Of a DNA stretch of 64,000 bases, positions 7,206-37,458 are shown piece after piece. Both the position numbers and the translations under genes were made by a program. The number at the start of each line of letters is the position of its first letter. Within the stretch, counting starts at the first letter, position 1. The stretch lies in assembly GCF_003852525.1 (NCBI RefSeq), contig NZ_QAJL01000003.1:613343-677342 (forward strand). Direction: 5' to 3'. The notes beneath the pieces were generated by a model. The model was not told the origin of the DNA. It ran no database searches and worked only from the letters and a program-made list of their open reading frames with translations. This DNA comes from Pedobacter sp. KBW06 (lineage in GTDB: Bacteria; Bacteroidota; Bacteroidia; Sphingobacteriales; Sphingobacteriaceae).

Positions 7206-7832
7206 TTAAACGCCTTCCATTCCGTACTGCTTCAGTACATCTGCAGGCACTCCTTCCCATTTATTGGGAACATTACCTACATAACCGATGTCTTTCACTC
7301 CGATTTCGCTGGTAAAGAAGCCTGAAGCTGTAAGGTTTCTCATCAGGTTAAAGAAAGCAACCCCTTGTTCCATTCCTGGCTTGGCCTTTTTAGGATAAGC
7401 GATCTGGTCGATCATCTCTATCTTCTGCTCATATGAAGTGTCTTTGAAAGACTTTTCATAACGGTTCAGGCATTGCAGGTCCAGCCACCTCAGTCCACCT
7501 CTCATCGGGGTTTGGTGTTCCGGCATGTCTTTCACAATAAACTCTATAAATTCCGGCACTTTCGCATCCGTAGCACTTCCGGATTTATCGTCTTTAGGGA
7601 TGATGATATCCGCAAGAAGGGCAATACTGGCCATTTCATGTGCCGTAAAGAACTTTTCTGCCTTTAATTTTTTATCTCTTTCAATCTCCCATTCTTCTCT
7701 TCCTGCTTCCGGGGTGCCTCCTTCCGGAGTTTCTGCTACTTTTTTATCCTCGCCGGGCTTGCAGGCGTCCAGCAATACCGCAGTACTGATGGTGGTAATT
7801 CCGAGGACTTTCAGTGATTCACGTCTGTTCAT
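7206..7832 (-). CDS. Gluconate 2-dehydrogenase subunit 3 family protein
   Basis: 208 residues. The N-terminus MNRRESLKVLGITTISTAVL has a twin-arginine-type motif and continues to LLDAC, a plausible lipobox, so the mature protein is probably a Tat-exported lipoprotein. The body (FFTAHEMASIALLADIIIPKD..., then a segment with MRGGLRWLD) matches the small gamma subunit of membrane-bound gluconate/sorbitol dehydrogenases. It lies 21 bases downstream of the GMC oxidoreductase gene. In known members the small subunit carries the export signal and the flavoprotein, which lacks one, is co-exported; the same arrangement is seen here. Confidence 0.88.
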   Translation of the reverse strand: MNRRESLKVLGITTISTAVLLDACKPGEDKKVAETPEGGTPEAGREEWEIERDKKLKAEKFFTAHEMASIALLADIIIPKDDKSGSATDAKVPEFIEFIVKDMPEHQTPMRGGLRWLDLQCLNRYEKSFKDTSYEQKIEMIDQIAYPKKAKPGMEQGVAFFNLMRNLTASGFFTSEIGVKDIGYVGNVPNKWEGVPADVLKQYGMEGV

Positions 7833-7853
7833 AATTTCTTTTTTTTAAACAGC

Positions 7854-9590
7854 TTAAATATTTTGTTTTTTCTTTTGCTCCAGGATGTATTCGGCAGTCC
7901 TCATAGAGAGGGCAAGAATCGTCCATGTCGCATTTTTATCTCCTTGTTGTACGAAAGGCGCAGCATCCACTACAAACAGGTTTTTACATTCATGTGCCTG
8001 ACACCATTTGTTCAGGGCTGACTTCTTAGGATCATCTCCCATTCTGATCGTCCCTACCTCATGGATAATTTTTCCAGGTGCTTCCAGACCATAATTGGTA
8101 TCCGGACCAGGAATATCTGAAGTAATGATGGCACCCATAGCATGCATCATAGACTGGAAGGTCTCCTGCATGTGTTTCGCCTGTTTTATTTCCTCATCGG
8201 CCCATTTATAGTTAAACCTCAATACCGGAATTCCGTATTTGTCAACTACTTTAGGATCGATTTCGCAATAATTGGTTTCTCTGGCGATGGCAGTTCCCCT
8301 ACCGGCCATTCCTACGGATGTACCATAGAAACGTCTGTAATCGTCTTTTAACGAAGCACCATAACCACCCGCTTCTTTCATTTTACCATCTCTTCCGGGC
8401 ACCATTCCATTCAGTTTGGCAGTACCACCACCAAATCCATAGGCCGGCATGCCCATTCCACCCCAGTACTCAATATGATAGCCACGAGGGAAATCCAGTT
8501 TCTTATTGTCCAGCCACCATGGAGAATAGATATGGACACTGCCCACACCATCTTCATTATAACGCTTGCGATCCATTAATTGCGGCAGGAAGCCACCTAA
8601 ACTTGCCCCGGTCGAATCGTGTAAATATTTACCAACGATACCACTGCCATTGGCCAGTCCACCTGGATGGGCAGCAGATTTAGAGTTCAGCAAAATCCTT
8701 GCAGATTCGCAGGCACTGGCACCAAGGATCACGGTTTTAGCGTTCACCTGGTATTCCATTCCGTCTTTTTTATTGATATAAGATACGCCGGTCGCCAATC
8801 CGTTTTTATCGGTCAGCACTTCTCTCACCATGGCATTGGTAATTACCGTCAGGTTTCCTGTTTTCACGGCCGGGATCACCAGGCAGGAAGAAGAAGAGAA
8901 ATCTCCGTAAACTTTACAGCTACGTCCGCATTGCCCGCAGTAAAAACAAGGAGCACGGTCTTTATTTCCCGGCAATGCTTCTGTTAAAACAGATCCCCTG
9001 CCCGGGATTACCTTTACTCCGGTCTTCAATCCGGCCTTCTTAATAAACAGTTCATTGAGCCTAGGTTTTGGCGGAGGAAGAAAGATTCCATCTGGTTCAT
9101 TTTCGATTCCTTCGACAGTTCCATAAACGCCAATAAGGCGGTCTACCTTGTCATAAAAAGGTTTTAGCTCCTCATACGTAATAGGCCAGTCGTCGGTTAG
9201 TCCATCCTTACATTTAAAATCCAAAGGACCCATTCTCAAGGAAATTCTTCCCCAGTGATTGGTTCTTCCACCAAGCATTCTTGACCGGAACCAGGCAAAT
9301 TCAGTTCCTGATTTCTGGGTATAAGGCTCACCATCTAATTCCCAACCTCCATAAGAGGCATCAAAATCTCCAAAGGGTCTGGTGGTTGATGCGCCGCGTC
9401 TGGGAGATTCCCATGGCCATTTTAACTGTTGTGCGTCGATACGTGGGTCGAAATAAGCACCAGCTTCCAGCATCAGCACTTTTTGCCCGGCATTGGCCAA
9501 TACATATCCGGCCATACCTCCGCCTGCTCCGGATCCTACGATAACGACATCATAGACGGCAGACGATTTCTTGATTTGAAATTCACTCAT
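7854..9590 (-). CDS. GMC-family FAD-dependent oxidoreductase
   Basis: 578 residues. The FAD-binding Rossmann motif GSGAGGG is at residues 19-25, followed by the LEAG acidic strand end. A Cys-rich stretch (CFYCGQCGRSC, about residue 212) is shared with gluconate/sorbitol dehydrogenase-type GMC proteins. The C-terminal part carries HEVGTIRMG and GDKNATWTIL, the regions that supply the His/Asn catalytic pair. It should oxidise a sugar or polyol alcohol. It has no signal of its own; the downstream Tat-type small subunit probably carries it to the periplasm. First gene of a two-gene operon; no cytochrome c subunit is adjacent. Substrate cannot be told from sequence. Confidence 0.92.
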   Translation of the reverse strand: MSEFQIKKSSAVYDVVIVGSGAGGGMAGYVLANAGQKVLMLEAGAYFDPRIDAQQLKWPWESPRRGASTTRPFGDFDASYGGWELDGEPYTQKSGTEFAWFRSRMLGGRTNHWGRISLRMGPLDFKCKDGLTDDWPITYEELKPFYDKVDRLIGVYGTVEGIENEPDGIFLPPPKPRLNELFIKKAGLKTGVKVIPGRGSVLTEALPGNKDRAPCFYCGQCGRSCKVYGDFSSSSCLVIPAVKTGNLTVITNAMVREVLTDKNGLATGVSYINKKDGMEYQVNAKTVILGASACESARILLNSKSAAHPGGLANGSGIVGKYLHDSTGASLGGFLPQLMDRKRYNEDGVGSVHIYSPWWLDNKKLDFPRGYHIEYWGGMGMPAYGFGGGTAKLNGMVPGRDGKMKEAGGYGASLKDDYRRFYGTSVGMAGRGTAIARETNYCEIDPKVVDKYGIPVLRFNYKWADEEIKQAKHMQETFQSMMHAMGAIITSDIPGPDTNYGLEAPGKIIHEVGTIRMGDDPKKSALNKWCQAHECKNLFVVDAAPFVQQGDKNATWTILALSMRTAEYILEQKKKQNI

Positions 9591-26012: not shown

Positions 26013-27308
26013 TTAAAATTCGATATCCCAAATCCCTGCGGCCCTTTCCAGTTCCAGCAATGTATTTCCACAGGCGTTCCATGTCTCCAGATAACTCTGC
26101 TGAACCTCATTAAATGTTCGCTGGGCATTGAGCACTTCCAGAAGTGAAGTTTCTCCCCGTTTATAGCTGTACACCTTGCCATCCAATACTTTCTGTGCAT
26201 CCTCCAGCATTCCTCCTGAAAACTGTTCGACCTGCTTTCGGCTCGCCAGGTAATTATAATAAGCCTGTGTCACCTCTGTCTGAATCTGCAGTTCGGTTTG
26301 CTGGTATAAGACTTCGTTCTGCTGAACGCCATACTTGGCAGCCCTCAATGCCCCGGGATTCTGGTTGGAAAACTTCAAAGGAATGCTGAACCCTATCGTG
26401 ACATTTGTTGAAGAAGGTGTTGGTGCCACGGCATTGGCCACCACTGAATTTGAAGCGACACCAAGAGACAAGCCCAAATCAAGCGTTCTGCTGGCTTTAG
26501 CCAGTTTAAGTGCCCATTTAGACACCTCAGTGCTTTTTAATGCAGCCAGCAGGTCCGTACGGCGATTCTGAGCATTCAGGATCAGCTCTTGCAGGTTGAA
26601 AATCCTTTCGAGCTTTTTCAGGTCAACATCAGGTGCGTAAAAGGTATCCTGTTGTTTTGATCCGCTCCACATGTTCAGGCTCGCCAAAGCTGCTTTCCAA
26701 TCTGCCTCCTGCTGAAAAACTTCGTTCAGCTGTGATGCGGCCTCCAGTCTGGATTGCCTGGCATCAACCCCTGATATCGCGCCCAGTTTTAATCGAATGC
26801 TGTCCGAGCTGCTCAGTTTTTTCATCATGGCATAAGAATTCATTTTTAGCCGCAGCAATGCCTTTTCCTTTACCGCATTCAGGTAAGCCAGGGTTGCGTC
26901 AGCCCTTAGGTTTCGGAAATAATCGTCTAGTAAAAGCTGAGCCAGCTCCGCTTCCCTGTTGGCCAGGTTAATCCTGGCCTTTCGTTTACCACCCATTTCC
27001 AGCGTATAGCTCAGGCCAGAACTGATTTCGTATCCCATTTTCATACGCCGTTGCCCATGATCTCCTGCTCCAAAGCTCAACTCAGGATCAGGAAAAACCC
27101 TTGCACTCAAGGCATCCGCCTCCGCAATGCTCACTTTAAATTTTTCGGCAGCATAACCCAGGTTATTCTGCCCAACCATTTTCAAATAAGCCGGAAAAGA
27201 GAGTTTAAGCTGATAAAAACCGGTATCCACCTGAGCATGGACACTGTGGCCAAAAATTAGCAGCAACAGGATTAAAAAACCTTTTTTATATTCATTAAGT
27301 AAGTTCAT
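26013..27308 (-). CDS. TolC-family outer-membrane efflux channel (CzcC-like)
   Basis: 431 residues with a signal peptide ending SVHAQ. Long alpha-helical hairpins with heptad-like pattern repeat twice (residues ~50-210 and ~250-420), the usual TolC fold; YKRGETSLLEVLNAQRTFNE is the family signature. It should form the trans-periplasmic duct for the RND pump encoded just upstream; the pump gene overlaps its start by 14 bases. Confidence 0.93.
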   Translation of the reverse strand: MNLLNEYKKGFLILLLLIFGHSVHAQVDTGFYQLKLSFPAYLKMVGQNNLGYAAEKFKVSIAEADALSARVFPDPELSFGAGDHGQRRMKMGYEISSGLSYTLEMGGKRKARINLANREAELAQLLLDDYFRNLRADATLAYLNAVKEKALLRLKMNSYAMMKKLSSSDSIRLKLGAISGVDARQSRLEAASQLNEVFQQEADWKAALASLNMWSGSKQQDTFYAPDVDLKKLERIFNLQELILNAQNRRTDLLAALKSTEVSKWALKLAKASRTLDLGLSLGVASNSVVANAVAPTPSSTNVTIGFSIPLKFSNQNPGALRAAKYGVQQNEVLYQQTELQIQTEVTQAYYNYLASRKQVEQFSGGMLEDAQKVLDGKVYSYKRGETSLLEVLNAQRTFNEVQQSYLETWNACGNTLLELERAAGIWDIEF

Positions 27309-30300
27309 CGGTGTTGGAATTAGTAGTTAATAATTGGATTTTACCAGTTGCAGCATCCGCTTCAGCCCTACGCTCCAACAGGTAATAAAGTGCTGGAAGG
27401 GCATACAAAGTAATGGCCGTAGAGAAAAGTAAACCATAAACGATGACGGTAGCCAGGGGCCGTTGTACATCTGAACCGATCCCTGTAGCCAATGAGGCTG
27501 GCAACAAGCCAAGAACGGCTACCGTAGCCGTCATCAATACCGGCCGGAAACGATGTTTTGCACCTTCAATTACCGCGTTTTTCAACGCCATCCCCTGCTT
27601 TCGCAAGCTATTGATATGCGAAAGCATGATGACCCCATTCTGTATCGCCACGCCAAAAAGCGCAATAAAGCCAACGGCAGAAGAGACATTGAGCGTCATC
27701 CCCCTGAGGTTTAAAGCCAGCATTCCGCCAAACAAAGCGAGAGGAACAATGGTCAGGATCAGTGCCGCCTGATTAAACTTGCCGAAGGCGACATAAAGCA
27801 GTAAAAACATGATCGCCAGCGCCAGGGGAACAATTACCAGCAACCTGGAATAGGCACGATTCTGGTTTTCAAACTGTCCGCCCCACTGGATGCTGTACTT
27901 CTGATGGCCGTACGTAATGTTCTTTTCAATTTTCGCTTTAGCCTCTTTAAGTAAAGAAGATAGGTCCGTACCCCTCATGTTAAGCTTTACCGTGAGATGC
28001 CTCCGGTTCGTCTCTCTCGTGATCGTACTCTCTCCGGTACTCAGCCCGATGTCTGCGACCTGCGACAAAGGGATTTTAGCCCCCTCATTGTTTGTCAGCA
28101 TGAGGTTCCCGATTTTCTCAGGACTATCCCTGCTGTCTTCTTTATAGCGGCAGGTCAGCTCATACACCTTATTGCCCATGAATACCTGAGAAATTGCTTT
28201 TCCACCTATTGCAACCTCGATCAGGTTTCCTACATCGGCTACATTTAAACCATACTGAGCGATTTTCTCCCGGTCTGCCCGAATCTGCAATTGCGGCAAT
28301 GGTGGTTCCTGGTCAATCGCAATGTCTACCGCTCCTTTAACGGTTTTCAGCGTTCGCCGGATGTCCTCTGCGATTCTCCTGCTTTCCTTAAAGTCATCAC
28401 CATAAACCTTTACGACCAGCTCACTATGTGCCCCTGAAATCTTATCCATCACCCCATCAATCATCGGCTGTGCAAAACCCACAGTATAGCCGGGCATGCT
28501 TTCATATTCTTTCGACAATTCAGCGATCAGGTCTGCTTTGGTTTTCCCCCGCGGCCATTGGCTATAAGGCAAAATTCCGATGGAGCATTCAAAGTGGGCC
28601 GCGGTAAAAGGATCGGTTCCATCGTCGTTTCTCCCGGCCTGAATCATCATATAGGTCACCTCCTTATGTTTCATCGTCCGATGACGAAGCGTATCGCTCA
28701 TCTCCCTGGATTTCTCCACCGTGATCCCCGGAGGAAGCTGAACCTGCAACCATATAGACCCCTCATCAAGAGGAGGCAAGAAATCTTTTCCTACAGTAAC
28801 ACTTAAAACAAGACCCGATACAAGCACAAATGCCAAAGGCAGAAAAACCCTGCCCGGCCGCGCCATGATTTTGCTGGTCCTGCTGTAATAAGCAAGGCTC
28901 AGTTTCTCCAGCCATTTGTTGTGATACAACTTTTTAGGCTTGCGGTAAGTCAGGTATGCGAGGCCCGGAATCAACAACAATGCAACGGCCAGCGCACCAA
29001 ATAAAGCATAGCCAACTGTAAACGCCATTGGTGTAAACAGCTTCTTTTCTACCCGTTCAAAAGCAAATAAAGGCAGGTAGGCGGTGATGATAATCAAGGT
29101 GGCAAAGAAGATCGGTTTTGCAACGCTAAAAGCACGATTGGCAATAGACTGCTCTTCCAGCACCTCCTCCGGATGATCCTCTCTTTTCTTGAGAATTGTT
29201 TCCATCATCACGATGGCTCCATCCACGATGATTCCAAAATCTATCGCCCCCAGAGAAAGCAAATTCGCTGGAATATTGGTCAGTTTCATCAGGATAAAAG
29301 CAATGAGCAATGAAATGGGAATGGTAATTGCCACCAGTAATGCACCTCTCCAGCTGCCCAGAAAGACGATCAGAACAATGATCACCAGTGCCATTCCTTC
29401 GATCAGGGTATGGGATACTGTCTTTAGCGTTGTGTCTACCAGATCTGTACGGTCCAGAAAGGTATGGATCTTTACGCCTTCAGGAAGCAGGCCATTGTTG
29501 AGTTCATCTACGGATTTATTGATTCCTGCAAGAACATCTGAAGGATTTTCTCCTTTCAGAAGCAATACGATCCCCTGGATACTTTCACTATAATCACGAC
29601 TGCGATCGGTATAGCCCAGGACACCTTTACGTTCCAGTTTTCCATATTTCAATTCCCCGAGATCGCTCAGCAGAATGGGAACTCCCTTTTGGGACCTGAC
29701 CACAATGCGGCCAATGTCTTCCAGGTTCCTCAGCAGCCCGATTCCACGAACCACGTAACCCTGCTCGCCTCTGTTCAGGATGCTTCCCCCCACATTTGCA
29801 TTGTTTTTGGCAATCGTTTCTTCAACATCGCTAATATTCAACTGGTATTGCTCCAGCTTTGCAGGATCGAGTTCGATCTGATACTGAGTGGTAATGCCCC
29901 CAAAATTGGTCACATCGGCTACGCCCGAAACCTGCTTGATCCTGGGGATGATCAGCCAGTTTTGAAGGTCAGTCAGTTCCCGGAGGTCATGCCCCTTGCT
30001 TTCAATCACATAGCGGTAAATTTCGCCCGTTGGCGAAGTCAGCGGGTCCAGACCAGGCGCTGCACCATAGGGAAGCTGCACCTCCGTAAGCCGTTCCTGA
30101 ATGCGCGTACGCGCAAAATAATCGTCTGTGCCGTCGTTAAACACAATGGTGATGATAGACAGTCCAAAAGTACTTTTGCTTCGCATCACGTGCATCCCAG
30201 GCATTCCGTTCAACGCTCTTTCCACAGGAATGGTGATTTGTTGTTCTACCTCTTCCGCGGCCAGACCGGGAACCTGGGTAACAACCTGGGAGGTCACATC

Positions 30301-30426
30301 GGCAATATCAGGATAAGCTTCCACTGCAAGCTTTGTCCATGAATAATAACCAAAGACCCCCAGGAGGAGGAATAGGGCCAGCATCAGCCAGCGCTTTTGT
30401 ATGGCGGTAAGTACAATATTTTTCAT
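27295..30426 (-). CDS. czcA: HME-family RND heavy-metal efflux pump (CzcA-like)
   Basis: 1043 residues from ATG 30426 (1061 if an upstream in-frame ATG at 30480 is used; the shorter form MKNIVLTAIQKRW fits the usual start). Twelve membrane segments and two large periplasmic loops are recognisable. Membrane segment 4 carries DFGIIVDGAIVMME, the Asp-Asp-Glu pattern of divalent-cation (Zn/Co/Cd/Ni) pumps rather than the Cu/Ag type, although the usual Asn after the Glu is replaced. It should expel metal from periplasm or cytoplasm, driven by protons. Middle gene of the adaptor-pump-channel operon. Its start region is duplicated upstream (30511-30530). Confidence 0.94.
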   Translation of the reverse strand: MKNIVLTAIQKRWLMLALFLLLGVFGYYSWTKLAVEAYPDIADVTSQVVTQVPGLAAEEVEQQITIPVERALNGMPGMHVMRSKSTFGLSIITIVFNDGTDDYFARTRIQERLTEVQLPYGAAPGLDPLTSPTGEIYRYVIESKGHDLRELTDLQNWLIIPRIKQVSGVADVTNFGGITTQYQIELDPAKLEQYQLNISDVEETIAKNNANVGGSILNRGEQGYVVRGIGLLRNLEDIGRIVVRSQKGVPILLSDLGELKYGKLERKGVLGYTDRSRDYSESIQGIVLLLKGENPSDVLAGINKSVDELNNGLLPEGVKIHTFLDRTDLVDTTLKTVSHTLIEGMALVIIVLIVFLGSWRGALLVAITIPISLLIAFILMKLTNIPANLLSLGAIDFGIIVDGAIVMMETILKKREDHPEEVLEEQSIANRAFSVAKPIFFATLIIITAYLPLFAFERVEKKLFTPMAFTVGYALFGALAVALLLIPGLAYLTYRKPKKLYHNKWLEKLSLAYYSRTSKIMARPGRVFLPLAFVLVSGLVLSVTVGKDFLPPLDEGSIWLQVQLPPGITVEKSREMSDTLRHRTMKHKEVTYMMIQAGRNDDGTDPFTAAHFECSIGILPYSQWPRGKTKADLIAELSKEYESMPGYTVGFAQPMIDGVMDKISGAHSELVVKVYGDDFKESRRIAEDIRRTLKTVKGAVDIAIDQEPPLPQLQIRADREKIAQYGLNVADVGNLIEVAIGGKAISQVFMGNKVYELTCRYKEDSRDSPEKIGNLMLTNNEGAKIPLSQVADIGLSTGESTITRETNRRHLTVKLNMRGTDLSSLLKEAKAKIEKNITYGHQKYSIQWGGQFENQNRAYSRLLVIVPLALAIMFLLLYVAFGKFNQAALILTIVPLALFGGMLALNLRGMTLNVSSAVGFIALFGVAIQNGVIMLSHINSLRKQGMALKNAVIEGAKHRFRPVLMTATVAVLGLLPASLATGIGSDVQRPLATVIVYGLLFSTAITLYALPALYYLLERRAEADAATGKIQLLTTNSNTDELT

Positions 30427-30530
30427 CAGAATATATTTGTTTTTCAATGGTAATGAAGCGATCATGATCTTAATATTCATTTCGTTATGTGATCTGTAAG
30501 ATCATGATGGTTTCATCAGAATATATTTGT
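30421..30530 (-). repeat. Duplicated translation-start region with internal inverted repeat
   Basis: TTTCATCAGAATATATTTGT occurs at 30421-30440 and 30511-30530; with mismatches the repeat extends to about 36 bases, and the period is exactly 90. On the minus strand each copy reads ACAAATATATTCTGATGAAA; the downstream copy is the pump start, the upstream copy opens a four-codon ORF (MKPS, then stop) in the same frame. Between them, ATCATGATCTTA at 30461-30472 is perfectly inverted at 30497-30508. Confidence 0.75.
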
Positions 30531-30564: not shown

Positions 30565-31671
30565 TTACTTTGCTTCAAGCAGGTAAAAACCACCTTCAGT
30601 GACGATTGTTTCTCCCGGTTTAAGCCCGGACGTGATCATCATTTCCCCCTGATCAACAGCGGCTGTTTCGACTTTCCGGCGCACAAATTTCCCCGGAGCA
30701 GTCTGCAGGAACACAAAACTGTTATCGTTCATCTGGAAAACAGACGAAACAGGCACCGCAGCCGTATTTTGAGGACTATCCTTGAAACTGACTGTTACGT
30801 ACATCCCCGGTTTAAGGGCATAATCCTTATTTTCACATTCGATCAGCACCTTCACGCTCCTTGTCTCTTCGTCGATTAAATCTTCGACACGATAGACCCT
30901 GCCCTTGATTTTGCGTCCCGGATAAGCCGCTACCGCGATCGTCGTTTCGTCGCCCTGATGTATAAAGCGGATGTCCTTTTCTTTCACCTGTCCGGCAATC
31001 CAGACTTTGTTCAGTTCTGCGATTTTTGCATGAGGAGCCTCGTCGCTTTTCAGGTAATGTCCCGTCACCAGGTCATTTTGAATGACCTCTCCTTTGATGG
31101 GAGAACGAATGATCAATGGCTGTCCCAGAACCAGTTTATCCGGGTCAGTCTGGTAGATCCTGAGGGCAGCCCTAACATTTTCATACTCCTTTAAAATCAG
31201 CTCATAAGAAGCTTCTGCCTCTTCCAGATCTTTAACTGAACCCACTTCATTTTTTTTGAGGTCCCGCTGACGTTTTAAATTCAACAATGCCTTCTTTAAT
31301 TCGGACTTTGCAGCGAAATAATTCTTCTGGGTTTCTATAAATTCAGCGGATACCATTTCAAAAAGCGGAGTTCCGGGATCGACCTTCATTCCAAGTTTCA
31401 GAAACACTTTGACCACCCTTCCGGAGAACGGTGCTGCGATGTCTGCAAAGAAGTTTGGAATGGCCTTTACTGTTCCTGCACTACTGAGTGTCATACGGTA
31501 GGCAGTTTCTGCAACCGTATCCAGTTTTAGTTTATGCTGCAGGTTTGAGTTCGCTGCGATGAGCACCGTATCGCCTGAGAGCTGATAATTTACAGCTTGT
31601 TCTTTGTCTTTTTTTTGGGCACAGGAAGCCATGAGCAGTAAGAAACTGCCGGTCAGTAAAATCTGTTTCAT
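30565..31671 (-). CDS. RND periplasmic adaptor lipoprotein (CzcB-like)
   Basis: 368 residues. The start MKQILLTGSFLLLMASC is a lipoprotein signal. A beta-barrel/lipoyl arrangement (IAAPFSGRVVKVFLKLGMKV ... IIRSPIKGEVIQNDLVTGHY) surrounds a helical hairpin (about 105-165), and the C-terminal part has KPGMYVTVSF and GLKPGETIVTEGGFYL. It links the RND pump to the outer-membrane channel. No His-rich N-terminal metal domain is present. First gene of the efflux operon, 117 bases after mgtA ends; a separate promoter is possible. Confidence 0.93.
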   Translation of the reverse strand: MKQILLTGSFLLLMASCAQKKDKEQAVNYQLSGDTVLIAANSNLQHKLKLDTVAETAYRMTLSSAGTVKAIPNFFADIAAPFSGRVVKVFLKLGMKVDPGTPLFEMVSAEFIETQKNYFAAKSELKKALLNLKRQRDLKKNEVGSVKDLEEAEASYELILKEYENVRAALRIYQTDPDKLVLGQPLIIRSPIKGEVIQNDLVTGHYLKSDEAPHAKIAELNKVWIAGQVKEKDIRFIHQGDETTIAVAAYPGRKIKGRVYRVEDLIDEETRSVKVLIECENKDYALKPGMYVTVSFKDSPQNTAAVPVSSVFQMNDNSFVFLQTAPGKFVRRKVETAAVDQGEMMITSGLKPGETIVTEGGFYLLEAK

Positions 31672-31788: not shown

Positions 31789-34473
31789 TTACAGCCATTG
31801 ACTAAACTTTTTAATGAACAAAGATTTCACATATTGAGTTAGCAAACAATAGCCAGTCAGGATGCCGATGAGCCATGGAAAATAGGTAAGCGGCAAGGCT
31901 TGGAGCTTCAATATTCCGGCAAAAGGACTAAAAGGAATTGCGATTCCGACCAGCATAATTAAGGTCGTTAATGCGACTACCGGAGTTGTTGCCCAGCTTT
32001 GAATAAAAGGAATTTTCCTGGTCCGGATCATGTGCACAATCAGCGTTTGCGACAACAGTCCTTCCACAAACCAGCCGGTCTGGAACAGCGTCTGGTGTTC
32101 CGGGGCATTGGCTTTAAAAACAAAGAACAGCACTGCAAATGTGGCATAGTCGAAGATGGAGCTGATCGGCCCGATATACATCATAAACCGGCTGATCCCC
32201 GCTGCATCCCATTTTTGAGGTTTTTCTAGAAAGTCTTCATCCATTCTGTCCCAGGGGATAGAAATCTGTGAGATGTCATACAGCAGGTTCTGAATTAACA
32301 GGTGGATTGGCAACATGGGTAAAAAGGGAAGAAATGCACTGGCCCCCAGCATACTGAACATGTTTCCAAAATTGCTGCTGGCAGTCATTTTGATGTATTT
32401 GATGATGTTTCCAAAGGTTCTGCGCCCATAGATCACCCCTTTACGGAGTACCATCAGGTCCTTTTCCAGCAAAATGATATCGGCACTTTCCTTGGCAATA
32501 TCCACAGCCGTATCGACTGAAATGCCCACATCTGCATCTCTTAGCGCAGCAGCATCATTGATCCCATCCCCCATAAAGCCAACGGTATGACCTTTCAACT
32601 GCAGCAATTTCACAATTCTTGATTTCTGAATGGGGCTGAGCTTGGCAAAAATACTGGTCTCCGCAAGCCGGGCAGAAAGTTCCTCATCACTCATCTGTTC
32701 CAGTTCATTGCCCAGTAAGACCTGCTGAAAGGGAATTCCTACATCCCTGCAGATTTTCCTCGTTACAATATCATTATCACCGGTCAGGACTTTTACGCTG
32801 ACGCCCAGTTTCTGTAACCCTTCAATTGCAGGTTTAGCAGAGGGCTTTGCAGGATCAAGAAAGCCGATAAACCCGGTTAGGATCATCTTTTGCTCATCCC
32901 CTACCGTATAGTTCGCCGGGCGTCCTTCATGTTCCTTTATCGCAACCAGCAGTACCCTCAGTCCATCTGCATTGAGTTTACGGGAAATGCGGAGCACAGT
33001 ATTCCTCATGGTTTCATCCATAGGAACAATGCCATCTTTTTCGATGTGAAGCCGGCGGTCTTCTCCCGGATCGAAAGCATGCGAACAGAGGTCCAGCATT
33101 TCTTCCACCGCTCCTTTACAGATCAGCAGCTGTTTTCCGTTTTTCTGTTCCAGGATCACGCTCATACGTCTCCGCTGAAAGTCAAACGGAATCTCGTCCA
33201 CCTTCACATAATCCTCTTCCACCTTCAGGTAGTCATGAAGCTCTACATGCTCCAAAACAGCCAGATCAAGCAGGTTTTTCAATCCGGTTTGATGGAAACT
33301 ATTGAAATAGGCCCATTTCAGTACCTCATCATCTTCTTCACCAAATACGTTCAAGTGCCTTTCCAGGATGATCTTATCCATCGTCAGCGTTCCTGTTTTA
33401 TCCGTACAGAGCACATCCATCGCCCCGATATTCTGAATGGCATTCAGCCGTTTCACAATAACTTTGCGTTTGCTCATGTTCTTGGCCCCTTTGGCCAGAT
33501 TTGCCGTCACAATCATAGGCAGCATTTCCGGGGTGAGGCCTACAGCAACAGCAATTCCAAACAATAGGGCCTCAAACCAGTCGCCCTTGGTTAATCCGTT
33601 CAGGAGAAAAATAAGCGGCACCATCACCAGCATAAATCGGATCAGCAGCCAGCTCACTTTGTTGACCCCTTTATCAAAGCTTGTTTCCGCACGTTTTCCG
33701 GTAATTGCTTTTCCGATAGAACCGAAATAGGTCAGATTGCCGGTTGTCACGACGATAGCCGTTGCCGTTCCACTCAGCACATTGGTTCCCATAAAGCAGA
33801 TGTTATCCAATTCCAAAGGAGATTTATGATCGGCATCCGGGATCAGTTCCCCGTTCTTTTCCAGAGGAAGAGATTCCCCGGTCAGCATCGCCTGACTCAC
33901 AAAAAGGTCTTTTGACGTGATGATGCGGATATCCGCCGGGATCATATCCCCTGCACTTAAAAAGATCACATCTCCCGGAACGATATTTTTGATATCGATC
34001 TCCTTCCTGCCCCCTATTTTACGGAGTACATTGACCGTGGTTTTCACCATACTTTTCAATTGTTCTGCCGCGCGGTTACTGCTGTATTCCTGCCAGAAAC
34101 GCAATAATGAACTTAGCACCACCATCAGGCCTACCACTATCACCGTTTTATAATCCCGCTCAGGCGTTTTAACCAACCATACATCCATTATAAATGAAAT
34201 GACAGCCAAGATCATCAACACGGCAATAAAAGGGTTTAGAAAGGCTTGAAATAACTGAACATACCAGGCCGGTGCTTTTTCATGCTGAATTTCATTTAAT
34301 CCAAACATTTTTCTCTTTTCTGCAATCTGGGATGGTCCCAGTCCTTCTTTATTGCTGCTCAGCATGGCATAAAAGAAGTCCTGGTCTCCCCTTGAAGCAT
34401 TTCTCAATTTGGTTACTGCTACATCATCGAAGCCTGAGACCGCTTTCTGATGGTTCGTTTTTAGTGTTTTCAT
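31789..34473 (-). CDS. mgtA: Magnesium-translocating P-type ATPase
   Basis: 894 residues of the P3-type ATPase family. Visible are the actuator motif SQAMLTGESLPLEK, the phosphorylation site CTDKTGTLTMD (about residue 356), the ATP-binding FDFQRRRMSVIL, and the hinge MGDGINDAAALRDADVGIS. Ten membrane segments are expected. It imports Mg2+ into the cytoplasm at ATP cost when Mg2+ is scarce. The ATG overlaps the stop of mgtC by four bases, so translation is coupled. Confidence 0.96.
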   Translation of the reverse strand: MKTLKTNHQKAVSGFDDVAVTKLRNASRGDQDFFYAMLSSNKEGLGPSQIAEKRKMFGLNEIQHEKAPAWYVQLFQAFLNPFIAVLMILAVISFIMDVWLVKTPERDYKTVIVVGLMVVLSSLLRFWQEYSSNRAAEQLKSMVKTTVNVLRKIGGRKEIDIKNIVPGDVIFLSAGDMIPADIRIITSKDLFVSQAMLTGESLPLEKNGELIPDADHKSPLELDNICFMGTNVLSGTATAIVVTTGNLTYFGSIGKAITGKRAETSFDKGVNKVSWLLIRFMLVMVPLIFLLNGLTKGDWFEALLFGIAVAVGLTPEMLPMIVTANLAKGAKNMSKRKVIVKRLNAIQNIGAMDVLCTDKTGTLTMDKIILERHLNVFGEEDDEVLKWAYFNSFHQTGLKNLLDLAVLEHVELHDYLKVEEDYVKVDEIPFDFQRRRMSVILEQKNGKQLLICKGAVEEMLDLCSHAFDPGEDRRLHIEKDGIVPMDETMRNTVLRISRKLNADGLRVLLVAIKEHEGRPANYTVGDEQKMILTGFIGFLDPAKPSAKPAIEGLQKLGVSVKVLTGDNDIVTRKICRDVGIPFQQVLLGNELEQMSDEELSARLAETSIFAKLSPIQKSRIVKLLQLKGHTVGFMGDGINDAAALRDADVGISVDTAVDIAKESADIILLEKDLMVLRKGVIYGRRTFGNIIKYIKMTASSNFGNMFSMLGASAFLPFLPMLPIHLLIQNLLYDISQISIPWDRMDEDFLEKPQKWDAAGISRFMMYIGPISSIFDYATFAVLFFVFKANAPEHQTLFQTGWFVEGLLSQTLIVHMIRTRKIPFIQSWATTPVVALTTLIMLVGIAIPFSPFAGILKLQALPLTYFPWLIGILTGYCLLTQYVKSLFIKKFSQWL

Positions 34474-35180
34474 AACTCTGATTGTTGTCCTGTTAATTCC
34501 CAGCTCACCCTCATCACCTCGCTCTCGATCGTCAGCCTGCTCACCATTTTCTCCATCAGCTCGTCCTGATTGCCGGCCGCAATGATCTCAGCAGTGATGA
34601 TCGCATTTGCGGGATCTCCATTATCGCTGCTGGTCAATGCCCTCAGCATTAATTTATCATGGTTCCCCAGGTGTTGCAGCAAGAGGACACGAATGTGATT
34701 TTCTACCGTTTCTTTGCACTTGATTGAGATCAGGTATTCCGTATCCGACGATTCGCTTTTATGAAAAATGGAGATTTTACCCAGCTTCAGACCCAACGGG
34801 CGTAACATCAGATGTGCCATCACGATAAAAGCGGCACCGATGGCTGCTTCCGAAATAAAGCCCATTCCACACAATGCGCCGATTGCTGCAGAACACCAGA
34901 GTGTAGCCGCGGTATTGAGTCCGCGGACATTTGTCCCATCTTTCATGATGACACCGGCACCCAGAAACCCGATGCCGCTAACGATATAAGAAGCAACCCG
35001 GCCACTGGCATCGCCTCCGATTTTTACGGCAAGCGTAATGAAGATTGCAGCACCCAGAGACACCAGCGTATTGGTCCGTAAACCTGCGATACGCTGACGC
35101 CATTGGCGTTCTATGCCGATTCCGGCGCCCAAAGTAAGCGCCAGTAAAAGGCGCGTTGTGAAGTCTAATGTAGTTAACAT
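34470..35180 (-). CDS. mgtC: MgtC/SapB family membrane protein
   Basis: 236 residues. Four to five N-terminal helices contain GAGIGIERQWRQRIAGLRT, VSLGAAIFI, YIVSGIGFLGAGVIMKDG and NTAATLWCSAAIGALCGMG, all hallmarks of MgtC/SapB. The C-terminal ~90 residues form an ACT-like cytoplasmic domain (EYLISIKCKETVENHIRVLL). In other bacteria MgtC helps survival at low Mg2+ and modulates F-type ATPase. It is the first gene of the mgtC-mgtA pair; its 207-base upstream region has RR-box-like repeats, a promoter box, a leader ORF and a hairpin. Confidence 0.95.
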   Translation of the reverse strand: MLTTLDFTTRLLLALTLGAGIGIERQWRQRIAGLRTNTLVSLGAAIFITLAVKIGGDASGRVASYIVSGIGFLGAGVIMKDGTNVRGLNTAATLWCSAAIGALCGMGFISEAAIGAAFIVMAHLMLRPLGLKLGKISIFHKSESSDTEYLISIKCKETVENHIRVLLLQHLGNHDKLMLRALTSSDNGDPANAIITAEIIAAGNQDELMEKMVSRLTIESEVMRVSWELTGQQSEL

Positions 35181-35188
35181 GGCTTTTG

Positions 35189-35217
35189 TTGTTGCCCCAA
35201 CTCAGGGACAGCAACAA
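35189..35217 (-). promoter_or_regulatory. Hairpin directly in front of the mgtC start
   Basis: TTGTTGC (35189-35195) pairs with GCAACAA (35211-35217), and CCC with GGG inside, with a 3-base bulge and 6-base loop. On the minus strand it begins 4 bases after the leader ORF stop and ends 8 bases before the mgtC ATG, covering the likely ribosome-binding region. Leader-ORF translation would disturb it. Confidence 0.55.
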
Positions 35218-35221
35218 AGCA

Positions 35222-35278
35222 CTATTCTGAGGAGGGAAGGTGAAAAAATAATGGCTTATGACACGGAGGCTTATCCAT
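35222..35278 (-). CDS. Proline-containing 18-residue leader ORF of mgtC
   Basis: An ATG at 35278, about 20 bases after the predicted transcript start, opens an 18-codon ORF reading MDKPPCHKPLFFHLPSSE and ending TAG 41 bases before mgtC. It has four prolines, including a CCT-CCG pair at codons 4-5. In enterobacteria, the mgtA and mgtC leaders encode short Pro-rich peptides (MgtL, MgtP) whose slowed translation changes downstream expression. The match here is of position and composition, not sequence. Coding is inferred, not proven. Confidence 0.5.
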   Translation of the reverse strand: MDKPPCHKPLFFHLPSSE

Positions 35279-35302
35279 ATGGTTTGTTTTTTTATTGTGA
35301 TG

Positions 35303-35310
35303 CAAAAGTA
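35303..35310 (-). promoter_or_regulatory. -7 promoter box of mgtC
   Basis: On the minus strand TACTTTTG matches TAnnTTTG exactly. No TTTG -33 box is present at the standard distance, as expected of an activator-dependent promoter. The predicted start lies near 35298. Confidence 0.6.
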
Positions 35311-35311
35311 A

Positions 35312-35324
35312 GGCAGGCCCTGCC
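35312..35324. promoter_or_regulatory. 13-bp palindrome just upstream of the mgtC -7 box
   Basis: GGCAGGCCCTGCC is a perfect dyad (GGCAGG / CCTGCC with one central base) placed in the spacer immediately next to the -7 box, where a bound protein would block polymerase. Candidate repressor site. Confidence 0.4.
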
Positions 35325-35331
35325 GGATCGC

Positions 35332-35375
35332 CGTTAGGGGACCATTAGAAAGACATTAGAAAGTCATTAGAAAAG
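35332..35375 (-). promoter_or_regulatory. Four 11-bp direct repeats: candidate OmpR-type response-regulator boxes
   Basis: On the plus strand CATTAGAAAGA (35343-35353), CATTAGAAAGT (35354-35364) and CATTAGAAAAG (35365-35375) follow each other with no gap; a degenerate copy CGTTAGGGGAC lies at 35332-35342. On the minus strand the core is CTAATG every 11 bases. OmpR/PhoP-family regulators bind such one-turn-spaced half-sites as head-to-tail dimers. The array ends about 22-33 bases upstream of the mgtC -7 box and 13 bases after the sensor kinase stop. Confidence 0.7.
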
Positions 35376-35387
35376 GGCAGGATTTTA

Positions 35388-36755
35388 CTAAACGTGGTTT
35401 AGGATCAGGATAAAAGTAGTTCCTTCATGCTCTTTGGAGGTCAGCAGAATTTCTCCGTTATGGAGGTCAACAATCTTTTTGGTCAGGGCAAGGCCGATGC
35501 CATTCCCTTCCGCATACTCTTTGTTATTCCCTCTGTAAAAGGGTTTAAAGAGGTTTTGTATGTCTTTTTCGGCAATACCGATCCCCTGGTCCGAAAAACG
35601 CAGGATCGTTTTTTCTTTGTAGTAGGAAATAGAGACCACAGATTCCTGGTTTTCAGAAAACTTGCAATTGTTCTCCATCAGGTTGATAAAGGCAAGCTTT
35701 AACAGGTGCTCATTCCCCTGAATCGAGATAAAATCATCGTCTTCCGCTTCCTGATCAAAGATGATGTTCACCTGGTATCCCGCCTGGTTGTGCATCACTT
35801 CCGTTCTTGCATCCAGCAGCACTTCATCCAGACGGATTTCCTTAAAGCTGATCTCTGCCTGGTCATAGCTCGCATTCGCCAGATTCAGCAAACTTGTACT
35901 TAAGCGGGCCAGTTTACGGGCATCCGTTAAGGCCAGTTCAATCGCTTTTTGGTATTCAACTGTACTTCGTTCTTTATTCTGAGAGATTTCCAGTTCTGCA
36001 ATTACGGTGGCCAATGGTGTTCTCAGTTCATGAGAGATATGGGAGACAAATTCTTTCTGGGCATCAAAGGAGTTCTCAATTCTGTCGAGCATCCGGTTAA
36101 AGGTGATGGCCAGCTCTCCGACTTCGTCTTTACTGTTCTCAACTTTGAGCCTCAGGTCAAGGTTTTTAGCCGTAATCTCCTCCACTTCATCGACCATGTC
36201 CGCTACGGGCTTCAGGGCATGTTTGGCAAAAAAGTAGCCCGCAAAAACCGTTAGAACGATGCTTCCAATCGCCGATAAAATCAGGATAAAACGAAGGTTC
36301 CCCAGCTTTATCAACCCATATTCGTCTTTTGCAGCAGCAGTGATGACATAATCCGCTCCTTTATACCGATATAAAAAACCGACTGCCTGAAGTTCTCCCT
36401 GGTTAAACTGAATCTCTCCCTTGCTGACAATCTCGGCAATCATCGCCCTGGTTTCTTTGATCTTGTCAATATTTACCGCATCATGGTACAACAGCTGAAA
36501 ATCTGTATCATAAACCGCCACTTCCTCCTGGAACAAAGAGCCCGGAGAATTTTTATAGATCGTTTGTAAAACACCCGGCTCTACTTTAGCGTCCAGCAAA
36601 AGATTGGTTTTAGTAACCGCCAGTTGTCTCAGGCGCTTATAGTATTCCTCCTCCCTGTTCTCTGCCGAGGAGAAATAGATAAAAAAGGCAAATCCGGAGA
36701 TGATCACCGCAAAAAGCAGGGTAAATAAAAGGCTGAGTTTGTAGCGGATTTTCAA
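35388..36755 (-). CDS. Two-component sensor histidine kinase
   Basis: 455 residues. Membrane helix at about 7-28, a periplasmic sensor region of about 125 residues, a second helix (about 155-172), HAMP, then HisKA with SHISHELRTPLATVIAELEI (His near 240) and a HATPase domain ending with FSDQGIGIAEKD and GNGIGLALTKKI. The periplasmic region has no recognised fold but has several acidic stretches, which could bind cations. It lies 19 bases downstream of its response regulator gene and directly upstream of mgtC, so Mg2+ or envelope sensing is a reasonable guess. Confidence 0.94.
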   Translation of the reverse strand: MKIRYKLSLLFTLLFAVIISGFAFFIYFSSAENREEEYYKRLRQLAVTKTNLLLDAKVEPGVLQTIYKNSPGSLFQEEVAVYDTDFQLLYHDAVNIDKIKETRAMIAEIVSKGEIQFNQGELQAVGFLYRYKGADYVITAAAKDEYGLIKLGNLRFILILSAIGSIVLTVFAGYFFAKHALKPVADMVDEVEEITAKNLDLRLKVENSKDEVGELAITFNRMLDRIENSFDAQKEFVSHISHELRTPLATVIAELEISQNKERSTVEYQKAIELALTDARKLARLSTSLLNLANASYDQAEISFKEIRLDEVLLDARTEVMHNQAGYQVNIIFDQEAEDDDFISIQGNEHLLKLAFINLMENNCKFSENQESVVSISYYKEKTILRFSDQGIGIAEKDIQNLFKPFYRGNNKEYAEGNGIGLALTKKIVDLHNGEILLTSKEHEGTTFILILNHV

Positions 36756-36774: not shown

Positions 36775-37458
36775 TCAGCTTTCTTTGAAAATAAAGCCCA
36801 TTCCGGTTTTGGTATGAATTAGTTTATGATCAAAGTTCTTATCAATTTTCTTTCTAAGATAGTTCATATAAACGTCTATGAAATTGGTTCCCGTATCAAA
36901 ATGGGTATCCCATACTTTGTCTGCGATCTCTGCGCGTGTCAGAATCCGCTCTTTATTCCGCAACATGTACTCCAGGAGCTTAAATTCTTTAGGAGTAAGG
37001 CTGATTTCCATTCCCATCCTGCTCACCACGTTGGTTTGCAGGTTCATTTCCAGGTCTGCATATTTTAATACCTTCGCTACCGGAGCATGTGAAGTACTTA
37101 AGGAACGGTTCAGCAGGGCTTTTATCCTTGCGTGAAGCTCCCGAAAGTCGAAAGGTTTCACCAGATAGTCATCTGCACCAGCATCAAAACCATCAATCTT
37201 GTCATCTGTAGTACCGAGGGCAGTGAGCATGATGACCGGAATTTCCGGCCAGATCATTCTGATTTCTTTACACAGCTCAATTCCATTCATCCGGGGAAGT
37301 ACAATATCCGTAATGATCAGATCGTAACGGTTGGAGGTCATTAATTTCTTTCCCATCAATCCATCGTAAGCCAGTGTAACCAGGTAGCCCTGCTCCTCCA
37401 GCCCTCTTTTAACGAGTTCTGAAACACGAAGATCATCTTCAACTAATAACAGCTCCAT
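36775..37458 (-). CDS. OmpR-family response regulator
   Basis: 227 residues. The receiver domain has the acidic pair EDD at 7-9, the phosphorylated Asp at 51 (IITDIVLPRMNG), Thr in MLTALG and Lys in DDYLVKPFDF. The DNA-binding winged helix (about 130-225) has SLTPKEFKLLEYMLRN and YMNYLRKKIDKNF. This class binds tandem direct repeats spaced by one helical turn, as found upstream of mgtC 1.4 kb downstream. Cognate kinase follows immediately. Confidence 0.95.
   Translation of the reverse strand: MELLLVEDDLRVSELVKRGLEEQGYLVTLAYDGLMGKKLMTSNRYDLIITDIVLPRMNGIELCKEIRMIWPEIPVIMLTALGTTDDKIDGFDAGADDYLVKPFDFRELHARIKALLNRSLSTSHAPVAKVLKYADLEMNLQTNVVSRMGMEISLTPKEFKLLEYMLRNKERILTRAEIADKVWDTHFDTGTNFIDVYMNYLRKKIDKNFDHKLIHTKTGMGFIFKES

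Follow-up and report, generated by a model that had tools for sequence, protein, structure and literature searches.

A conserved 11-bp repeat array and a short leader open reading frame before mgtC–mgtA and a cation pump in Pedobacter: a candidate two-layer Mg2+ circuit of Bacteroidota

Introduction

What controls an mgtC–mgtA operon in Bacteroidota, and is Mg2+ the signal? The question is raised by a stretch of 64,000 nucleotides from Pedobacter sp. KBW06, here called the window, in which direct repeats separate the genes of a two-component system (TCS) from mgtC and mgtA. To our knowledge, Mg2+-responsive control has been well described in a few groups only. In the open-access literature we found no Mg2+ circuit in Bacteroidota, and no description of an mgtC leader ORF or of an mgtC two-component operator in this phylum.

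It had been proposed from the letters of the window that the repeats are the target of the neighbouring OmpR-type regulator in a PhoPQ-like circuit. Here, we examine the array, its conservation, the regulator and sensor that adjoin it, and the leader of mgtC, and we weigh Mg2+ control against the other explanations of the locus.

Results

Organization of the operon

The genes follow one another on the minus strand in the order response regulator (RR), histidine kinase (HK), array, mgtC, mgtA, CzcB-like adaptor, RND permease and outer-membrane partner (Table 1), with mgtC and mgtA overlapping by 4 bp. HME-type RND efflux genes, identified by the TIGR00914 score of the permease, adjoin RR, HK and mgtC–mgtA. 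The permease carries the acidic motif DFGxxxDGAxxxxE, which we take to mark the divalent-cation type. In Chryseobacterium sp. Bi04 (L080), only short mgtA-like fragments lie between mgtC and the pump adaptor (7696-8100), as if mgtA had decayed there.

Table 1. Positions of the features discussed, numbered from the first letter of the window
Feature	Position	Strand	Basis or remark
OmpR-type response regulator (RR), 227 aa, CzcR/CusR-like	36775..37458	-	Pfam Response_reg + Trans_reg_C
Sensor histidine kinase (HK), 455 aa, predicted PDC-type periplasmic sensor	35388..36755	-	HAMP + HisKA + HATPase
Operator unit 1, TTCTAATG	35365..35372	-	
Operator unit 2, TTCTAATG	35354..35361	-	
Operator unit 3, TTCTAATG	35343..35350	-	
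Operator unit 4, CCCTAACG, where a -33 element would stand	35332..35339	-	CTCTAACn kept in 57 non-redundant loci
Sigma-A -7 box, TACTTTTG; predicted start ~35298	35303..35310	-	21 nt past unit 4 in 88/111 loci
Upstream ORF (uORF), MDKPPCHKPLFFHLPSSE then stop	35222..35278	-	First-ATG ORF; codon-level conservation
Hairpin over the mgtC ribosome-binding site (RBS)	35182..35220	-	z -4.12; covariation in 11 sequences
mgtC	34470..35180	-	Pfam MgtC + MgtC_SapB_C
mgtA, Mg2+ P-type ATPase	31789..34473	-	TIGR01524 1306 bits, cut-off 611
RND periplasmic adaptor, CzcB-like	30565..31671	-	
CusA/CzcA-family RND permease, motif DFGIIVDGAIVMMET	27295..30480	-	TIGR00914 933 bits, cut-off 701
Outer-membrane efflux protein, TolC/CzcC-like by position	26013..27308	-	ORF; orthologue in the same place in relatives

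The repeat array, a probable operator

Read on the minus strand, 35372-35332 is TTCTAATG act TTCTAATG tct TTCTAATG gtc CCCTAACG (contiguously, TTCTAATGactTTCTAATGtctTTCTAATGgtcCCCTAACG), with a period of exactly 11 bp, and TACTTTTG follows 21 nt on. Three near-identical 11-bp units and a fourth between the HK stop and mgtC, as originally predicted, are therefore present to the base. A genome search for CTAATG-N5-CTAATG had been suggested; its sole exact occurrence in the 8.14 Mb genome is the window array, which is also the single genome match of the four-unit pattern with up to three mismatches, so that neither search found a second four-unit array in this genome. A PhoP-like global regulon, which we considered, is unsupported as no further array exists in the genome. 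In 30 dinucleotide-shuffled versions of the window, no hexamer of any kind came up three times at period 11, and the CTAATG triple pattern gave at least 21 matches in 301 genomes of the family, against a handful for the reversed-pattern control. The array is real and not a product of chance.

Orthologues were taken from the family, from GTDB genomes, from Weeksellaceae (48 of 246 genomes) and from the genus itself (28 of 145 genomes), and each array was scored as four units at 11-bp spacing against TTCTAATG, with a maximum of 32. The scores are bimodal: 22-29 at 111 mgtC loci, and 19 or less in all other mgtC homologues examined, which stand outside this operon type and include those of Proteobacteria. 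The 111 loci are partly non-independent, and 57 are left once they are collapsed at 80% identity. Their range comprises Pedobacter, Chryseobacterium, Elizabethkingia, Myroides, Cytophagales and Kapaibacterium; the conservation in relatives on which the original prediction had staked itself is thus found across the phylum. A class-wide search added only four orthologues, and viral contigs held eight mgtC relatives of at most 54% identity. In the profile of the 57 loci, units 1 and 2 are nearly invariant as TTCTAAT and unit 3 is looser. The fourth unit, described at first as degenerate, does differ from the other three but is itself conserved, its core being CTAAC or CTAAT.

The array keeps its place at the head of the operon even when another gene comes first: it precedes mgtA at two Bacteroidales loci in which mgtA comes first (L088 and L091), and the pump adaptor and MFP-RND genes at L059, where mgtC is absent and the kinase is 58% identical. 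Elsewhere in the family, at L051, L052, L054-L058, L060 and L061, the same 11-bp CTAATG array separates more distant kinases of the CusS-like type (~30% identity) from RND efflux operons that are OMF-first, and several paralogous regulators thus seem to share one operator type. A CTAATG triple array also lies between a CusS-like kinase and a short universal-stress-protein-like ORF at L065 and L068 (1501-1528). The simplest reading of these distributions is that the array would be the operator of this RR subfamily, inherited together with the operon.

The promoter

The Flavobacterium sigma-A -7 box has the consensus TAnnTTTG and is placed at -12 to -5 (PMC9723704). Applied to the window, this placement predicts a +1 near 35298, with the units covering about -74 to -34, in agreement with the -35 to -75 first proposed. 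A promoter lacking a -33 box had likewise been foreseen, and none is visible either in the window, where unit 4 sits at that position, or in the 57-sequence non-redundant profile. Direct repeats of 11 bp on one helix face, abutting a promoter without a -33 box and adjoined by the presumed cognate RR, support the OmpR-type operator that had been postulated. The spacer between array and -7 box holds a palindrome, GGCAGGCCCTGCC (35312-35324), which was rejected as an element since it is altered even in the nearest relative (L064, ~99%).

The response regulator and the sensor kinase

The upstream regulator is of the OmpR type, as anticipated, by its two Pfam domains. The best NCBIfam match of RR is TIGR01387 (221 bits, cut-off 279) and that of HK is TIGR01386 (196 bits, cut-off 293). 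The best-matching models are thus cztR/silR/copR and cztS/silS/copS, all below cut-off, and no PhoP or PhoQ family model is among the best 25 NCBIfam matches of either protein. Judged by these matches, the cognate regulator, of the OmpR type, resembles CzcR/CusR and is no close relative of PhoP. Its recognition helix, GTNFIDVYxNYLRKKID, is near-invariant in 21 sequences that span the same range as the array.

The HK sensor is predicted to be a PDC domain (AF2 model, pLDDT 75). The top match of this model in VIA-align is PhoQ (3bq8; Z 10.2 over 107 residues, 3.2 Å), with WalK, DcuS and CusS within ~2 Z of it and CzcS also among the structural matches; since other PDC sensors score so close to PhoQ, the fold does not give the ligand of HK. 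Foldseek returned no match for the sensor model below E 0.001, and Pfam nothing significant for the domain. The signal may be limiting Mg2+, a divalent metal in excess or envelope stress. Within the periplasmic domain (window 36282-36674), Y-H-D, D, K-E and D (residues 90-92, 97, 100-101 and 144) are invariant over the phylum and form a candidate ligand or metal site. The idea of a PhoPQ-like Mg2+ circuit is therefore borne out in part: its OmpR-type operator is supported, but RR and HK are nearest to CzcR/CusR and CzcS/CusS, and the operon runs into a CzcCBA-type pump.

A leader ORF with an acidic second residue

The first ATG past the promoter, usually 17-28 nt beyond the -7 box, opens a short ORF (the uORF) of 9-27 codons. 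Among the 94 array loci with long leaders (at least 60 nt), it begins M[D/E] in 87, against 4.5% of dinucleotide-shuffled leaders and 7.0% of long ORFs of the same loci; proline at residue 5 accompanies this start in 71 of the 94, against 0.2% and 0%, respectively. Residues 4-5 are usually Gly/Asp-Pro or Pro-Pro. Examples are MDTDPHYYNN (Elizabethkingia), MDPDPYSQYKH and MDSDPYSNYQS (Chryseobacterium), MDAGPYF... and MDSGPH... (Sphingobacteriaceae), MEPDSAKSHLAH (Weeksella), MELGPIFALKR (Nitritalea) and MDPEPRRKNRVSPA (L163). The window peptide has D2 and P4P5, with PP replacing DP and one acid in its first six residues; 34 of the 87 peptides have a single acid there. The 17 remaining array loci, whose leaders are short at 19-39 nt, have no M[D/E] uORF, and eleven mgtC loci that lack the array have none either. 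Some Sphingobacteriaceae leaders (L022, L026, L074, L078, L223-L224 and L226-L231) are ~300-390 nt long and have extra small ORFs between the M[D/E] uORF and mgtC.

Codon usage points to the peptide. In 43 distinct starts, codon 2 is GAC 19 times, GAT 17, GAA five and GAG two, a set preselected for M[D/E], so that invariance at the first two positions of this codon is built in and freedom among synonyms is not. As all four acidic codons are used, selection acts on the peptide. Codon 5 is mostly CCC, CCT or CCG, and differences over the uORF are concentrated at third positions (1653, 1537 and 2857 at the first, second and third). The C-terminal parts vary, and it is therefore the nascent N-terminus that is conserved.

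RNA structure between the uORF and mgtC

Between the uORF stop and the ATG of mgtC, each of the 59 distinct sequences folds more stably than shuffled versions of it (z below -1 throughout, -3.0 on average and -4.1 in the window). In the clade of the window, the RBS hairpin covaries: 14 both-side cells in 11 sequences compare with 7.0 in shuffled alignments (0 of 500 as good), and slid controls are lower. A second Pedobacter clade (clade B, seven sequences) has both the RBS hairpin and, over the uORF stop, an alternative helix: each pairs in at least 96% of cells, and the hairpin covaries here too, the alternative helix weakly. In Weeksellaceae, an alternative helix touching the uORF stop covaries (0 of 500 shuffles); the anti-RBS:RBS helix is almost invariant there and hence uninformative. 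The alternative pairing YTCAG:CTGA of the window clade was rejected as evidence, as 322 of 500 shuffles were equally good and covariation gave it no support. RNAalifold finds few pairs in this clade, in which the first 18 nt of the leader ORF hardly vary and fold into a small hairpin.

In a crude simulation of equilibrium folding, 30 of 62 leaders have their RBS opened by ribosome drop-off and 18 have it closed. The window leader is one of the 18; a ribosome standing on the uORF stop would open its RBS hairpin. When the RNA is folded as a truncated, still-growing chain, an alternative structure is favoured in the leaders inspected. No known riboswitch or M-box matched the leader at Rfam gathering thresholds; the matches were chance ones only (E at least 0.39). 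The uORF and the RBS hairpin together form the strongest sequence argument that Mg2+ may control the operon.

Discussion

A putative two-layer mechanism

Very probably, the array serves the adjacent RR/HK pair as its operator. Dimers of phosphorylated RR would bind the tandem TTCTAAT half-sites in one orientation and on one face of the DNA, and the bound RR would activate the promoter without a -33 box in class-II geometry, driving mgtC, mgtA and the RND pump. The transcript would then pass a second, post-transcriptional gate, formed by the uORF and the hairpin that covers the mgtC RBS. By analogy with MgtL and MgtQ, ribosomes would fall off at uORF codons 2-5 when cytoplasmic Mg2+ is low, the downstream RNA would fold differently, and either translation of mgtC or transcription of the operon would rise. 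The first layer would thus read a periplasmic signal, and the second cytoplasmic Mg2+ through the stability of the ribosome. In Weeksellaceae, the first arm of the alternative helix would lie beneath a ribosome that gets to the uORF stop, so that the RBS hairpin could form (off); after drop-off, the alternative helix would be free (on). What the comparisons show are the sites, their spacing, the conserved peptide and the hairpins, and from there we infer RR binding, activation, uORF translation and the Mg2+ effect. That both layers operate together, TCS-driven transcription and ribosome-based Mg2+ sensing, is somewhat better than an even proposition. For the second layer, ribosome-based sensing of Mg2+ is the most likely reading; we commit ourselves to this and not to an RNA path in the window, because the simulated directions are mixed and the pairing in the window clade lacks covariation.

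Other explanations of the locus

The strongest competitor, to which we give slightly less than an even chance, holds that the TCS senses divalent heavy metals or envelope stress, as CzcRS does, and runs an efflux operon into which mgtC–mgtA has been recruited; Mg2+ would not be its signal, and mgtC–mgtA would replenish Mg2+ when competing cations are pumped out or hinder uptake. Consistent with this, cztR/cztS are the nearest family models, CzcS and CusS are among the structural matches of HK, many relatives have the pump after mgtC even if they lack mgtA (L073, L086, L092 and L093), and the array also precedes MFP-RND genes without mgtC (L059) and OMF-first RND operons with more distant kinases. 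Nevertheless, the RR and HK scores fall short of the family cut-offs, PhoQ matches the sensor fold at least as well, and the operon encodes Mg2+ import besides export. A metal-sensing TCS would, moreover, be compatible with the leader layer of the two-layer mechanism.

The leader layer has a competitor of its own, which we consider unlikely: the uORF may tune mgtC translation by coupling or reinitiation, or report proline/EF-P-dependent pausing, rather than sense Mg2+ by drop-off. The PP and single acid of the window peptide, the frequency of single-acid peptides and the equilibrium opening of the window RBS hairpin by a ribosome at the uORF stop would fit this; against it, the near-universal acid at residue 2 followed by Pro 5 resembles MgtL and also MgtQ with its acidic start, and the uORF stands before Mg2+-transport genes.

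Binding of the array by a regulator other than the neighbouring RR is improbable in a high degree: RR and HK are missing from the fetched flank at L075 and L084, but they lie upstream, usually directly, in most other named array loci, and the site is unique in its own genome. Conservation of the uORF start as an RNA element, to which the near-invariant 18-nt hairpin of the window clade could point, has marginally the poorest prospects of all, since the third positions of codons 2 and 5 vary freely across clades.

The two-layer mechanism, extended over the phylum, describes an old operon that couples a TCS to an MgtL-type leader (Met-acid-x-x-Pro), apparently evolved independently, to gate mgtC–mgtA and a cation pump; we rate this wider account at even chances. 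Since the operator, the regulator, the leader peptide and the RNA hairpin have each been kept in much of the phylum, the proposal is directly testable in cultivable Chryseobacterium or Pedobacter. If the uORF works by ribosome drop-off, the same physical sensor would have arisen outside Enterobacteria; this would help to account for the presence of Mg2+ import and divalent-cation export in a single operon, and ribosome destabilization would be a general, convergent bacterial measure of cytoplasmic Mg2+.

Comparison with known systems

An OmpR-type RR of Bacteroidota has been named PhoP in Riemerella PhoPR, for which the motif TTTAACA and hundreds of candidate targets are given; with this different motif, we do not regard it as the same system, and the mgtC mentions found there concern Salmonella MgtC (PMC9603813).

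CzcRS and CusRS provide the best NCBIfam matches and, as in the window, adjoin CzcCBA-type RND genes. The differences are that the window proteins score below the curated cut-offs and that the window operon includes mgtC–mgtA. The CusR/CopR box is palindromic, whereas the array here consists of four direct repeats.

With PhoPQ of Salmonella and E. coli, the locus shares an OmpR-type RR, mgtC and mgtA as targets, and direct repeats at 11-bp spacing; the PhoP box consists of hexamer direct repeats at 11 bp. The PhoPQ kinase also has a PDC sensor, as is predicted for HK, although a shared fold is not a shared function. Unlike PhoPQ, the window pair is nearer to CzcRS/CusRS and has four units rather than two, a Bacteroidota promoter and one local target found, to which an RND pump belongs as well.

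The leader may be compared with two enterobacterial uORFs. In MgtL, ribosomes dissociate at EPDP in low Mg2+ (PMC11282234). MgtQ is the uORF between mgtC and mgtB of Salmonella, where alternative stem-loops sequester the downstream RBS; Asp2 and Glu5 are needed and, by the authors' reading, destabilize the ribosome, so that this RBS is released (PMC8092293). Like these, the window has a short ORF before a Mg2+-related transport operon, with an acid and a proline in the first five codons, conserved as peptide. The likeness to MgtL of E. coli and Salmonella mgtA lies in the acid and proline at residues 2-5 (the uORF of L163 reads MDPEP, against EPDP) and is limited to the first five residues; the uORF belongs to another phylum, it precedes mgtC, and its hairpin, as far as seen, covers the RBS rather than exposing a Rho site. 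MgtQ shares Asp2 and an RBS-sequestering structure with the window leader, which differs in being the 5' leader of mgtC. The Met-acidic-x-x-Pro leader uORF is apparently undescribed. Taken one by one, the parts are of known kinds; what is new, as far as the open-access literature shows, is how they are combined and that they have apparently converged.
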